This document shows, one piece after another, positions 42,931 to 47,700 of a DNA stretch of 64,000 bases. Source of the stretch: Betaproteobacteria bacterium. Its GTDB lineage: Bacteria > Pseudomonadota > Gammaproteobacteria > Burkholderiales > Usitatibacteraceae. The stretch is taken from the NCBI GenBank assembly GCA_016791265.1, contig JAEUMY010000023.1:62001-126000 (forward strand), in the 5' to 3' direction. The translations under genes and the position numbers were made by a program. The notes beneath the pieces were generated by a model. The model worked only from the letters and a program-made list of their open reading frames with translations. It did no database searches and was not told the DNA's origin. How positions within the stretch are numbered: the stretch's first letter is position 1; each line of letters starts with the position of its first letter.

Positions 42931-43788
42931 TCAGTTCTTCAACGCCTCGTACAGCTTGGTCACCCGCTCCATCACGTCGAGGATGTTGTCGCACGCCTTG
43001 GTGACGTACTCCAACCGCTCCTTTGACGTCGGATTGCGGTTCAGATCGTCGGCGGCGATCTTGAGAAAGCCCAATTGGGTATCGGCAAGATCGAGCTCTT
43101 GCTTGATCTGCTCGGTGTTCTCCTTGGCCTTGGAGAGCTTTTCGATGTCGACGCGCAACTGATCGTTGGCGGCCTTGAGGTCGTTTTCGATCACGTTGTT
43201 GCGGATGCCCGCCGCGCGAAAGAGATAGAGCTTGGCGATGCGCTGGGTCAACACGCGCGCGTCACCGGCGATCGCGATGAGGTTGCTGCGCTGCGACCGG
43301 GTGAACTCCACCATCAGCTGCGCGCCCTTGGTCGCGATCCACACCACCTCCTCGTTCTGCTCGGCCAGCTTTTTGGTTGACTCGGGGGTGGCGGGCGCGT
43401 TGGTCAGCTCGCGAAACTCGCCCCACAGCTGTTCGAGCAGATTGTAGTTGTCCTGGATCTGCCCGGTCGGCGGCGCGGCCTGCAGGGTGCGGAGCGTCCG
43501 CTCGAACTCCCGGATGGCGTCTTGCATCTGGCGCTTGGCCCGGTTCTCCAGCGCCCCCTGCTGCAGCAAGGTGTAGGACTTGGTCACGCGCTCGACCAGC
43601 ATTGGCAGCCGCACGGCCATGTTGACGAAGGTCGCCGCGTCGAACTTGGGCCGGTTGATCTTGCTGGCCTGGGCCGATGCCGTGACCGGCATCAGTGCGA
43701 CCGACACGGCAAGGGTCGCGGAGAGAGCCGCCGTGAGGCCGCGTTTCACGGCCCGGAGGCAGGGTGAAGCGAGGGCTTGAAGTTCCAT
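42931..43788 (-). CDS. Secreted PilJ-N/NarX-like sensor-domain protein
   Basis: 285 residues with a signal peptide ending V-T-A-S-A-Q-A. The rest is helical and includes A-I-A-G-D-A-R-V-L-T-Q-R-I-A-K, the signature of the type IV pili methyl-accepting transducer N-terminal domain. There is no HAMP or kinase domain. It lies 50 bases after bufC on the same strand and may be in that operon. Confidence 0.82.
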   Translation of the reverse strand: MELQALASPCLRAVKRGLTAALSATLAVSVALMPVTASAQASKINRPKFDAATFVNMAVRLPMLVERVTKSYTLLQQGALENRAKRQMQDAIREFERTLRTLQAAPPTGQIQDNYNLLEQLWGEFRELTNAPATPESTKKLAEQNEEVVWIATKGAQLMVEFTRSQRSNLIAIAGDARVLTQRIAKLYLFRAAGIRNNVIENDLKAANDQLRVDIEKLSKAKENTEQIKQELDLADTQLGFLKIAADDLNRNPTSKERLEYVTKACDNILDVMERVTKLYEALKN

Positions 43789-43838: not shown

Positions 43839-44630
43839 CTATTCGACCACATCCCGAAGCCGCGTGCCGGCCATCATGCCGGCCCCGATGACCCCACCCA
43901 TCGCCGTCATCAGGAGGCCCCCTGGGTCGGGCGTACTCGCGAATGCGGGGGCATCCAGGGCCGAAGCCAGCGGTCGGCCCGCGAGCGACACGGACAGGAG
44001 GGCGGCGCGGGCCGGATCCAGCGCCTCGGCCACGCATTCGAAGCCCTCCCGATAGACTGCCACGGTTTCTCCGCCCTGGTCCAGACTGAAGTCATCGGGT
44101 AGCGCGCCGCCGGGCTGATGCGCCCGCCAGAGCGCGAGGATCGGCCACGGGGATTCAATCAGCGCGCAACCGGGCGCCGGGACCAGCACCAGCCGGTCCA
44201 GCGCGTCGGCGGGCACGTCGGCCAGCGCAGCCACGGTGATCGGAGTGCCATCGGCCGCATGGAACGCCCGATCAAGCGCCCACTCCAGCAGCGCCAGATC
44301 GCCAAGATAAGGGAGTGCTGCCGCCGGCGAATATTCGCCGAGGAACCCGGGCAACGCGGCACCCAGATCATGCAGGTCGCCCGAGGTGGACGGGTGCCTG
44401 GCGAGGCATTGGTCGGCCGCTTCGTTGAAGAACGCGGTCCCCACCAACTGCTCGACCACCGGAAAGGCGGCGGCCAGTGCGCCGCGCTGATTGGCCCGCA
44501 CCGCATTTCGATAGATGGCGACGCGGATCGCGGCGGCCGGTGGCCGGCCGGTGTCTCGCACCCGCGCTTCGATGCCGCCGCCGCCTTGCATGGCGGCGAG
44601 GAATTCACGCTGCAACGCGGCGAGCGGCAT
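43839..44630 (-). CDS. bufC: BufC-type protein (DUF2063, HvfC/BufC N-terminal domain)
   Basis: 263 residues. The N-terminal L-Q-R-E-F-L-A-A-M and Y-R-N-A-V-R-A-N-Q-R-G-A-L motif with F-P-V-V-E-Q-L-V-G is DUF2063. It is the usual RiPP-recognition partner of DUF692 enzymes and overlaps bufB by 26 bases. The C-terminal half holds the more variable domain. Confidence 0.9.
   Translation of the reverse strand: MPLAALQREFLAAMQGGGGIEARVRDTGRPPAAAIRVAIYRNAVRANQRGALAAAFPVVEQLVGTAFFNEAADQCLARHPSTSGDLHDLGAALPGFLGEYSPAAALPYLGDLALLEWALDRAFHAADGTPITVAALADVPADALDRLVLVPAPGCALIESPWPILALWRAHQPGGALPDDFSLDQGGETVAVYREGFECVAEALDPARAALLSVSLAGRPLASALDAPAFASTPDPGGLLMTAMGGVIGAGMMAGTRLRDVVE
44327..44338. repeat. Interspersed palindrome GCGAATATTCGC
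   Basis: Inside bufC, read on the minus strand as G-E-Y-S-P; the only copy in the whole bufferin operon. Confidence 0.95.
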
Positions 44631-45483
44631 GGCGTTCCAGGTGACGGGTCGCGGTGGCGGCTTCGGCGAGCAGCACCGGCAGCGCGGGAATGTCCGTGTC
44701 CCACTCGATCAGCGTCGGCACCGGGCCGAAGCGCGCGAGCGCTTCGGCATAGAGCGCCCACACGTCGTCAGCCACCGGGGCGCCGTGGGTGTCGATGAGC
44801 AGCGGCGCGGCATTGGTCTCCGTGTTCGAGTATTCACTGAATCCCGCGAGGTGGATTTCCAGCACCGCCTCCGTCGGCAGCGCGGCAAGGAACGCGCGGG
44901 CATCCAGGCCGTGATTGACCGCGTTGACGTGAATGTTGTTCACATCGACCAGGAGCCCGCAGCCCGTGCGCCGCGCCACTTCCGCGACAAACTCGGCCTC
45001 GGCCATGCTGCTTTCTTGCCAGGCGAGATAGGACGACACGTTTTCAACCAGAAAGCGGCGCTTCAAGCGCGTTTGCACCAGGTCGACGTGGCGGCAGACC
45101 ACGGCCAGCGCCTCGTCGGTGAACGGCAGCGGGAGGAGATCGTTGAGATGGGTGCCGGCGATGCGGCCCCAGCACAGGTGATCGGACACCAGCGCCGGCT
45201 CGATGCGTCGCACCAGCCGCTCGAGTTTATCGAGGTGGCGCGGATCCAGCCCATCGGCCGACCCCAGACTCAGTCCGACGCCGTGCAGCGAGACTGCATG
45301 GTCCAAGCGGAACCGGATGAGCCACGCCAGCGGCTGGCCGCCGTCGCCGAAATAGTTCTCGCTATGGACTTCGATGAAGCCGACCGCGGGCTGCATCTCG
45401 GCGAAGGCGCGATAGTGATCGCTCCGAAGGCCGATGCCGGCGACGGCGGGGTCGGGCAGGTGGTTCGAAAAAGAGGTGTCCAC
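44605..45483 (-). CDS. bufB: BufB-type multinuclear iron enzyme (DUF692)
   Basis: 292 residues, TIM-barrel DUF692. Metal-ligand-like motifs run in order: S-L-H-G-V-G-L-S, D-H-L-C-W, V-E-N-V-S-S-Y, V-D-V-N-N-I-H-V-N, I-H-L-A-G-F, D-T-H-G and E-W-D-T-D. Relatives such as MbnB modify cysteines in peptide precursors, and BufB-type enzymes convert Cys in bufferins to thiooxazoles. The gene is separated from the precursors by an intrinsic terminator. Confidence 0.93.
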   Translation of the reverse strand: MDTSFSNHLPDPAVAGIGLRSDHYRAFAEMQPAVGFIEVHSENYFGDGGQPLAWLIRFRLDHAVSLHGVGLSLGSADGLDPRHLDKLERLVRRIEPALVSDHLCWGRIAGTHLNDLLPLPFTDEALAVVCRHVDLVQTRLKRRFLVENVSSYLAWQESSMAEAEFVAEVARRTGCGLLVDVNNIHVNAVNHGLDARAFLAALPTEAVLEIHLAGFSEYSNTETNAAPLLIDTHGAPVADDVWALYAEALARFGPVPTLIEWDTDIPALPVLLAEAATATRHLERHAARRVAA

Positions 45484-45497
45484 GGCGCGCAGTGTGG

Positions 45498-45534
45498 CAA
45501 AAACGAAAAAGCCGTGCGCTGCACGGCTTTTCGT
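45498..45534 (-). terminator. Intrinsic terminator between precursor and enzyme genes of buf operon
   Basis: Minus strand: GAAAAGCCGTGC and GCACGGCTTTTTC form a 12-13 base stem around a 3-base loop, followed by GTTTTTGCC. It sits between bufA2 and bufB, so it should reduce read-through from precursors into the enzymes. Confidence 0.85.
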
Positions 45535-45561
45535 GTCGAGGTGATGGCGAAGATGCCCCGA

Positions 45562-45864
45562 TCAGTACTTCATCGTCGGCTTGTCGTCGGCCTTCGCTTT
45601 ATCGCCGGCGGGCTTGGTCAGCTTGCCGCCCGACTTCTCGCAGGTGCCCTTCGGCACGAACTTCCACTCCTCGGGATCGTTGTCCGTCGTGGCTTTGCCG
45701 GCGCAGGAGTGCTTGGAGGTGCCGCAGTCGTTTTGCGCCTTCTTCACGTTGCCGTAGCACTTCTCTTTCGGCGCGGGTTTGTCCTGGGCGGCGACGGCGC
45801 CGGAAATGCCGACGGCGAGCAGGCCGGCGATGGCTGAGGAGAGCAGGGTCTTGTTGCTTTGCAT
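45562..45864 (-). CDS. bufA2: BufA-type precursor (DUF2282), copy 2
   Basis: 100 residues. The signal peptide M-Q-S-N-K-T-L-L-S-S-A-I-A-G-L-L-A-V-G ends A-V-A-A-Q. Four core Cys lie in E-K-C-Y-G, N-D-C-G-T, H-S-C-A-G and K-G-T-C-E-K. The tail is Lys/Asp-rich. AAAGGA lies upstream. DUF2282 precursors are exported, Cys-modified, and bind copper in the described bufferins. Confidence 0.92.
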   Translation of the reverse strand: MQSNKTLLSSAIAGLLAVGISGAVAAQDKPAPKEKCYGNVKKAQNDCGTSKHSCAGKATTDNDPEEWKFVPKGTCEKSGGKLTKPAGDKAKADDKPTMKY

Positions 45865-45898
45865 GGTGAGTCCTTTCGGTGGGGGCAGGTGGGCTGAA

Positions 45899-46195
45899 CT
45901 ACTTCGAGTCGGTCGGCTTGCCCGGGGTGAGCTTGCCGCCCTTTTTTTCGCAGGTGCCCTTGGGCACGTATTTCCATTCGTCCGGCTCGTTGTCCTTTTT
46001 CGCCTTGCCGGCGCAGGTGTGGCGGGCGGTGCCGCAATCGTTCTGGCCTTTCTTGGCGATGCCGTAGCACTTCTCCCGTTCGGACTTCTTTTCCTGCGCC
46101 TTGGCATCACCGGCCTGGGCGAGCGCGATGAGGCCGGCGACGGCGGCGGCGAGGAGCGGATTCGGGGTTTGGACGGCGGTCGAGCGGGCGGTCAT
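45899..46195 (-). CDS. bufA1: BufA-type precursor (DUF2282), copy 1
   Basis: 98 residues, paralogous to copy 2. Its signal-like leader ends G-D-A-K-A-Q; the four core Cys are in E-K-C-Y-G, N-D-C-G-T, H-T-C-A-G and K-G-T-C-E-K. The spacing of the Cys matches copy 2, while the tail is shorter. It lies 34 bases before copy 2. Confidence 0.92.
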
Positions 46196-46311
46196 GGGGG
46201 TCTCAGGTGCGTGCGGAGGTGGCCAATATCTTAACGGCGGCTGCGCCGAACCCGTGCACACTTACGCGGCACGACGCGCGGCGGATGCGCGCCGGATGGG
46301 CGCGGGCTGCA

Positions 46312-46506
46312 TCAGGTCGGCGGACCCACTTTGCCGTAACGGTCGAGTGCCCGCTTCAGAAAGCTGAACTGCGCCTTCATGTTCTGGCAGCAGAGGCACT
46401 CGGCCAAGTGGTAATCCAGTTGGTCCAGCTCGGCCACGGAAAGTTCTCGGTCTTCCGCTTCGAGGAGGAGCCGCGTGGCCTTCTTGCAATTCATGTCGTC
46501 TGTCAT
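46312..46506 (-). CDS. Zinc-finger anti-sigma factor
   Basis: 64 residues from an ATG that overlaps the sigma-factor stop (ATGA). The ZAS/zf-HC2 motif is H-L-A-E-C-L-C-C (H-x3-C-x2-C). There is no membrane segment, so it is a soluble anti-sigma, possibly redox- or metal-releasing. Confidence 0.88.
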   Translation of the reverse strand: MTDDMNCKKATRLLLEAEDRELSVAELDQLDYHLAECLCCQNMKAQFSFLKRALDRYGKVGPPT

Positions 46507-47117
46507 CCGCGTTCTCCGCCGAACCAGGTCTGGTTGAGGCACTCGCGCAATCCCAGCCTGGCGCGATGCAGCATGACCCAGCAGTTGGACGCGGTGATGT
46601 TCTCTTCCTTACAGATGGTGTCGGTGTCGTGGCCCAGCACGTCGCGTTTGAAGAACACTCGGCCAGTGGTGGCTGGCAGGCGGTCCATGCAGCGCTCCAG
46701 TGCCGCGAAGAACGCCTTTTCCTCCAACGCCTTGTCCGGTTGCTGCCACGCCTCGGTAGGCGTGACCCGGTGGCCGTCCACGCTGAAGAGATCGTCGAAA
46801 AACGCCTCGGCCGACTCGATCTCGTCCTTGGGCGCCAGCCGCTGGGCGCGCTCGGCGGTGAGCTCGCGTTGCAGATCAATGATCTTGAATCGGAGGATGG
46901 CGGTGAGCCAGGTGCGGAGCGCCGACTTTCCGCTGAAGCCGGCCAGACCCTCCAGCGCGGCCAGGAGCGCCTCTTGCACGACCTCTTCGGCCTGGGCCGC
47001 GTCGCGCAACTGCGCGCGTGCATAGCGAATGAGGTAGTCGCGATGCGACTCGACGTCGGCGAAGGTGGGCGGCGTGGGGGATGCGGCGGCAGAAGCTGGT
47101 TTGGCGCGATCATTCAT
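46503..47117 (-). CDS. ECF-type RNA polymerase sigma factor
   Basis: 204 residues: sigma region 2 (Y-L-I-R-Y-A-R-A-Q-L-R-D-A-A-Q-A-E-E-V-V-Q-E) and region 4 (M-D-R-L-P-A-T-T-G-R-V-F-F, then D-T-I-C-K-E-E-N-I). It leads the operon and probably drives its own promoter and the buf genes. Many bufferin operons carry such a sigma and anti-sigma pair. Confidence 0.92.
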   Translation of the reverse strand: MNDRAKPASAAASPTPPTFADVESHRDYLIRYARAQLRDAAQAEEVVQEALLAALEGLAGFSGKSALRTWLTAILRFKIIDLQRELTAERAQRLAPKDEIESAEAFFDDLFSVDGHRVTPTEAWQQPDKALEEKAFFAALERCMDRLPATTGRVFFKRDVLGHDTDTICKEENITASNCWVMLHRARLGLRECLNQTWFGGERG

Positions 47118-47268: not shown

Positions 47269-47700
47269 ATGAATACTCTGGTTCGCTTCGACCCCGCCGC
47301 CGACCGTCTCGATGACTTCTTCGCCGGTTTTTTCCGCCCCGTGTTCAATGCCGAGCGCGGCACCGTGGGCAACACGTCTGAGATTCGTATCGATGTCCGC
47401 GAGGATGAAAAGTCCTATGCGGTCGACGCCGCCATTCCCGGCGTGAAGAAGGAGGACATTCATGTCGCCATCGACGGCAACGAGGTCAGCATCACCGCGG
47501 AAGTCAAGAACGAGAAAGAAGTGAAGGAAGGCGAGCGGGTGCTGCGCACCGAGCGCTTCTACGGCAAGACCACCCGCCGCTTCGCGCTGGCGCAAGAGAT
47601 TGACGAGTCGGGTGCCGCCGCCAAGTACGAGGACGGCGTGCTCAGACTGACGCTGCCCAAGAAGGCCGCCACCTCGGCGAAAAAGCTCGCTATCCAGTAA
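47269..47700 (+). CDS. Hsp20/alpha-crystallin small heat shock protein
   Basis: 143 residues. The alpha-crystallin domain is at about 35-130, with A-A-I-P-G-V-K-K-E-D-I and the G-V-L-R-L-T-L-P-K-K end motif. It is an ATP-independent chaperone. AGGAGA precedes the ATG. A heat-shock-type promoter and a strong terminator bracket it as a single-gene unit. Confidence 0.95.
   Translation: MNTLVRFDPAADRLDDFFAGFFRPVFNAERGTVGNTSEIRIDVREDEKSYAVDAAIPGVKKEDIHVAIDGNEVSITAEVKNEKEVKEGERVLRTERFYGKTTRRFALAQEIDESGAAAKYEDGVLRLTLPKKAATSAKKLAIQ

Follow-up and report, generated by a model that had tools for sequence, protein, structure and literature searches.

A Buf1-type bufferin operon with tandem precursors and probably tiered expression in a Burkholderiales genome

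Bufferins are needed in bulk while a single maturase acts on them catalytically, so how the ratio of substrate to enzyme is set matters. Buf1 precursors carry thiooxazoles on their central cysteines and bind copper (PMC12452194); the main text of that study does not describe control of the substrate/maturase ratio and leaves terminators, PilJ and zinc unmentioned. Here we ask how one such locus, with two precursors and one maturase, is arranged for expression. It lies in a 64,000-nucleotide stretch of DNA (the window) from a metagenome-assembled genome of the order Burkholderiales (3.94 Mb in 24 contigs, 90% complete). We favour, at a probability of about 0.75, reading it as a Buf1-type bufferin operon whose genes are expressed in tiers.

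Gene content of the operon and its last gene

Between 47117 and 43839 on its minus strand, the window encodes first an ECF sigma factor and a 64-aa zinc-finger protein, then two DUF2282 precursors, and last an MNIO protein and a DUF2063 (PME1) partner, the bufferin genes running in the order A-A-B-C (Table 1). Every named gene product except the anti-sigma exceeds its curated Pfam or NCBIfam cut-off. The sigma factor scores 205 bits against TIGR02943 (cut-off 162), the precursors 84 and 77 bits against DUF2282 (Pfam cut-off 22.4) and the maturase 359 bits against the Pfam DUF692/MNIO model and 378.6 bits against NCBIfam MNIO_BufB (cut-off 310), with a match to 3BWW over 261 residues. The DUF2063 protein has no sequence match among solved structures, and its gene overlaps that of the maturase by 26 nt. 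These family scores and the gene order conserved across related genomes exclude chance, bearing out the genes, strand and coordinates of a preliminary description of this DNA as well as its assignment to the bufferin (Buf1) operons. Judged by its sequence, the locus is an ordinary representative of a known family of gene sets. DoxX is a common component of bufferin operons; none is present in this set, and DoxX is found elsewhere in the genome.

Table 1. Features of the locus, with positions in the window
Feature	Position	Strand	Basis
HSP20 gene, divergent neighbour of operon	47269..47700	+	conserved beside operon
ECF sigma factor, 204 aa, TIGR02943 family	46503..47117	-	Sigma70_r2 and Sigma70_r4 over cut-off
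Cytosolic zinc-finger anti-sigma (ZAS), 64 aa	46312..46506	-	ZAS motif; sub-threshold NCBIfam match
Candidate ECF promoter CATCCG-N15-CGTA, 5' of precursor 1	46263..46287	-	motif count in related loci
Bufferin precursor 1, 98 aa, Cys 43, 54, 61, 82	45899..46195	-	DUF2282 over cut-off
Bufferin precursor 2, 100 aa, Cys 36, 47, 54, 75, longer tail ending in Tyr	45562..45864	-	
Intrinsic-terminator-like hairpin and T tract, precursor 2/maturase gap	45506..45532	-	
MNIO maturase (BufB, DUF692), GTG start	44605..45483	-	Pfam and NCBIfam over cut-off
DUF2063 partner protein (BufC)	43839..44630	-	PF09836, 71 bits (cut-off 27)
Exported protein, two PilJ/NIT-like four-helix bundles, last gene of set	42931..43788	-	Pfam PilJ

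Both precursors begin with a hydrophobic, Sec-type N terminus ending in AxA (judged by eye) and share the cysteine spacing C-X10-C-X6-C-X20-C. Their cores, described earlier as identical, are so in this spacing but match at only 29 of 40 residues (72.5%). Nor does a distinct timing of their expression fit the gene arrangement: the two genes lie 34 nt apart with neither a terminator nor a promoter-like motif between them, and one candidate promoter stands 5' of both. Differences in the tails hint weakly at distinct roles. The longer tail belongs to the second-position precursor in 8 of 9 tandem pairs, and a tail Tyr occurs in the second precursor of 8 pairs and the first precursor of one, counts that overstate the evidence since the pairs come from related loci. 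In a precursor tree, first-position precursors of genus g2 group apart from second-position ones (83/92) and those of genus g4 likewise separate by position, while the two precursors of the window pair together weakly (81/79); a duplication specific to the window is no more than a possibility. A search of the genome (3.94 Mb, 90% complete) turned up no further DUF2282 or MNIO gene, and because the maturase is the only MNIO found, it probably serves both precursors. Elsewhere, genomes of genus g3 carry a second, divergent DUF2282 locus (CAAGPGTSCAG type) that includes MNIO and DUF2063 genes of its own (L034, L037, L041, L048, L056, L058 and L060), and two relatives from the order possess four DUF2282 genes apiece, several of which have no MNIO gene beside them (L068-L070 in G043; L073-L075 in G049).

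We compared the locus with about 120 annotated loci, drawn from 47 more stretches that surround DUF2282 sites in the family and order, and from 80 named MNIO loci. Within the window's family, loci of genera g1, g2 and g4 share one gene order: a divergent HSP20 gene, the sigma-ZAS pair, one or two precursors, then MNIO, DUF2063 and PilJ genes, although not every locus holds every part and contig ends cut some. Genus g3 is represented by single-precursor loci that lack both this sigma factor and PilJ. The pairing of sigma-ZAS genes with one or more precursors is not unique to the family, since L092, L114 and L167 have it too.

The set, first described as ending at 43839, continues past that point. 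The next gene, at 42931-43788, encodes an exported PilJ-domain protein (hydrophobic N terminus; PF13675, 51 bits against a cut-off of 26.6) and is conserved with the set. Strong relatives occur in 13 genomes of the family and adjoin the operon in 11, spanning three genera; of the other two genomes, one has its bufferin locus and its PilJ gene at contig ends and one has no DUF2282 gene that we could find. In g4 the PilJ gene overlaps the DUF2063 gene by 4 nt or abuts it. Relatives exist outside the family, none of them at bufferin loci. A model predicted from a two-sequence alignment (pLDDT 82) has a disordered N terminus and eight helices in two bundles. Its best structural match is the nitrate-sensing NasR (4akk; Z 18.9, r.m.s.d. 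3.2 over 231 residues), which spans both bundles, followed among others by McpN (6gcv; Z 16.2) and PilJ (7zjr; Z 15.5), scores to be read in the light of how easily helical bundles reach high values. The protein may be a periplasmic accessory, perhaps one that binds a small ligand, and it is a new candidate partner for bufferins. We rejected a role as a copper binder: its alignment has no conserved His/Met cluster and one conserved Cys.

The anti-sigma factor and a candidate promoter

The sigma factor, 52-57% identical to its orthologues in family relatives, is followed by the anti-sigma gene in an ATGA overlap. Instead of a membrane anti-sigma of the NrsF kind, the window encodes a 64-aa ZAS protein that has no Pfam match and reaches 43 against the NCBIfam antisigmaE cut-off of 50. 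Its residues C7-X25-H33-X3-C37-X2-C40 fit the motif C/H-X23-26-H-X3-C-X2-C and are kept in relatives, the motif being present in 8 of the 9 ZAS proteins compared. In one locus (L063:6889-7452) the regulator is placed differently, its sigma gene coming after DUF2063 rather than ahead of the precursor.

On the other side of the sigma gene, the HSP20 gene is divergent, both in the window and in relatives from g2 and g4. Between the two genes a CTTGAAA box suggests a sigma-32 promoter, and HSP20 is probably under heat-shock control. A shared TTTCAAG box 5' of the sigma gene was considered as the promoter of the operon and rejected; it reads as the sigma-32-type -35 box of the divergent HSP20.

An unbiased count of spaced words 5' of the first precursor gave ATCCG-N15-CGTA as the commonest dyad, present in 5 of 13 regions; in 100 shuffled sets the commonest dyad never exceeded three regions. 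In the relaxed form [AC]ATC[CT]G-N15-CGTA it occurs in eight family loci and in L125, and in none of the remaining loci (about 110). Seven of the nine family loci with a sigma gene have it (L036 and L045 lack it); L046 and L125 carry it in stretches that contain no sigma gene. Both boxes are fixed, partly because of how the sites were chosen, and the 15 bases between them are nearly random. We take the motif as the candidate promoter of the operon's sigma factor. It is not specific by itself, since most of its 18 matches in the genome fall inside genes; in this search for further regulon members, only the bufferin site is convincing. A co-regulated msrA was likewise rejected: neither copy has the motif close 5', and the one distant match has a mismatch.

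Small ZAS proteins control MNIO operons of another precursor type (PMC7907618, PMC3240639). Anti-sigmas of the HrsE/MseR type are thought to sense oxidants. Because the ZAS here is cytosolic and such an anti-sigma answers oxidants in Haemophilus (PMC7907618), the inducer may be copper or oxidative thiol stress. The peptides themselves might act against oxidative or thiol stress and not against copper, with the ZAS sensing oxidants, a reading compatible with tiered expression. The motif of the window's ZAS fits that given for relatives of HrsE, MseR and RsrA; in Haemophilus, such a pair, with a sigma gene that HOCl and H2O2 induce, drives an MNIO-DUF2063-DoxX operon (PMC7907618), and Neisseria sigma-E acts on its own operon and on msrAB (PMC3240639). 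Against this, the Buf1 bufferins characterized to date confer protection from copper (PMC12452194), and the msrA copies of this genome lack a nearby motif. We regard an oxidant function as possible but the less probable one; copper buffering, plausible from family membership, is our best guess.

A terminator-like hairpin ahead of the maturase

Between precursor 2 and the maturase lies a hairpin, AAAAGCCGTGC-AGC-GCACGGCTTTT, followed by a T tract, with a fold of -19.5 kcal/mol (z -3.9). In a 41-locus set such hairpins occur in the precursor/maturase gap of 10 loci, against 0.07 expected from shuffles. All but one of these 10 have gaps of at least 40 nt, and 15 loci have gaps of that length. The remaining gaps of the set hold one hairpin in all, those between MNIO and DUF2063, between the two precursors and between DUF2063 and PilJ holding none. 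Hairpin sequences differ between species (for example AATGCCCTCG..., GCCCCCGC... and AAAAGCCGTGC...), so it is the structure that is kept and not the sequence; the hairpin of L115, from a Burkholderiales metagenome-assembled genome, is identical to that of the g2 contig G027:C99. Among 73 loci from elsewhere, five score for a hairpin, most of them weakly, and one of the five is of the same lineage; in g3 and g4 the gap has no hairpin. The feature appears to be mainly one of the window's lineage.

The start codon of the maturase follows about 15 nt past the T tract, which leaves little room for a maturase promoter after the hairpin, and a scan of the gap for sigma-70-type promoters found none. 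We infer from these two facts that termination is partial, with a minority of transcripts reading through into the maturase gene, and that the hairpin probably keeps the maturase scarcer than the precursor peptides.

These features qualify the earlier description of the locus as a single unit, which holds for the strand and is doubtful given a candidate ECF promoter between the ZAS gene and precursor 1 and a strong hairpin after precursor 2. One plain polycistron, running from a sigma promoter to the end past an inert or weak palindrome and a motif that is no promoter, would suit genes that all share a strand and lie close together elsewhere, and in g4 relatives the hairpin is missing and genes overlap. 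We think it improbable, as a hairpin with a T tract stands in most of the longer gaps in differing sequence (z -3.9 in the window) and the motif is retained while its spacer varies. Equally doubtful is a separately regulated maturase-DUF2063-PilJ unit behind a fully insulating terminator, which the strength of the hairpin and the 154 nt between precursor and maturase in the family relative L054, room enough for a promoter, would allow, but which the maturase start so soon after the T tract and the empty promoter scan of the window speak against.

Together, the hairpin, the spaced motif and the PilJ extension of the set make the sigma-ZAS genes, the precursors and the maturase-DUF2063-PilJ genes look like three expression tiers. 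In the tiered expression that we favour, the sigma factor would be held by its cytosolic zinc-finger partner, as the ZAS motif and the relatives suggest, until metal or oxidant stress frees it. The freed sigma factor would transcribe the precursors from the putative dedicated promoter just 5' of precursor 1, most transcripts stopping at the hairpin and a minority reading into the maturase, DUF2063 and PilJ genes, a ratio by which substrate would outnumber enzyme. By analogy with the family, the single MNIO with DUF2063 is expected to turn the central two cysteines of both precursors into thiooxazoles; once exported, the modified peptides would bind surplus copper in the periplasm, where the PilJ/NIT-fold protein may act as an accessory. 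More tentatively, this could be a lineage-specific system whose terminator sets the substrate/enzyme ratio, with thiol or metal stress read by the sigma factor that the ZAS holds, and with the tandem NIT-fold periplasmic protein either supplying a second input or handling loaded peptide. Control of the ratio is directly testable, given the recurrent terminator at the precursor/maturase gap and a sigma promoter that can be defined.

Comparison with known systems

The Buf1 operons of Caulobacter vibrioides and Cupriavidus metallidurans (gigPABT) resemble the set described here in the four-Cys DUF2282 precursor, the MNIO and DUF2063 proteins, the order bufABC and an adjoining sigma/anti-sigma pair; tandem precursors and a sigma factor with NrsF have already been published for Buf1 (PMC12452194). 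The present set differs from them in having a cytosolic ZAS where they have membrane NrsF, in lacking DoxX, and in its precursor/maturase terminator and terminal PilJ/NIT protein. In this lineage the set carries two precursors served probably by one maturase, a built-in terminator and an extra exported sensor-like protein.

In regulation, the nearer parallels are RpoE2-HrsE with its MNIO (oxazolin) operon in Haemophilus influenzae and sigma-E/MseR in Neisseria, where an ECF sigma factor and a small cytosolic ZAS likewise stand over MNIO-DUF2063 genes (PMC7907618, PMC3240639), a likeness at the level of the system. Those systems have EGKCG/COG3767-type precursors with DoxX, whereas the present set has the DUF2282 type without it. 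The product of the last gene shares its predicted fold with the NIT/PilJ sensor domains of NasR, McpN and PilJ, but unlike these sensors it is free-standing, exported and without a signalling domain.
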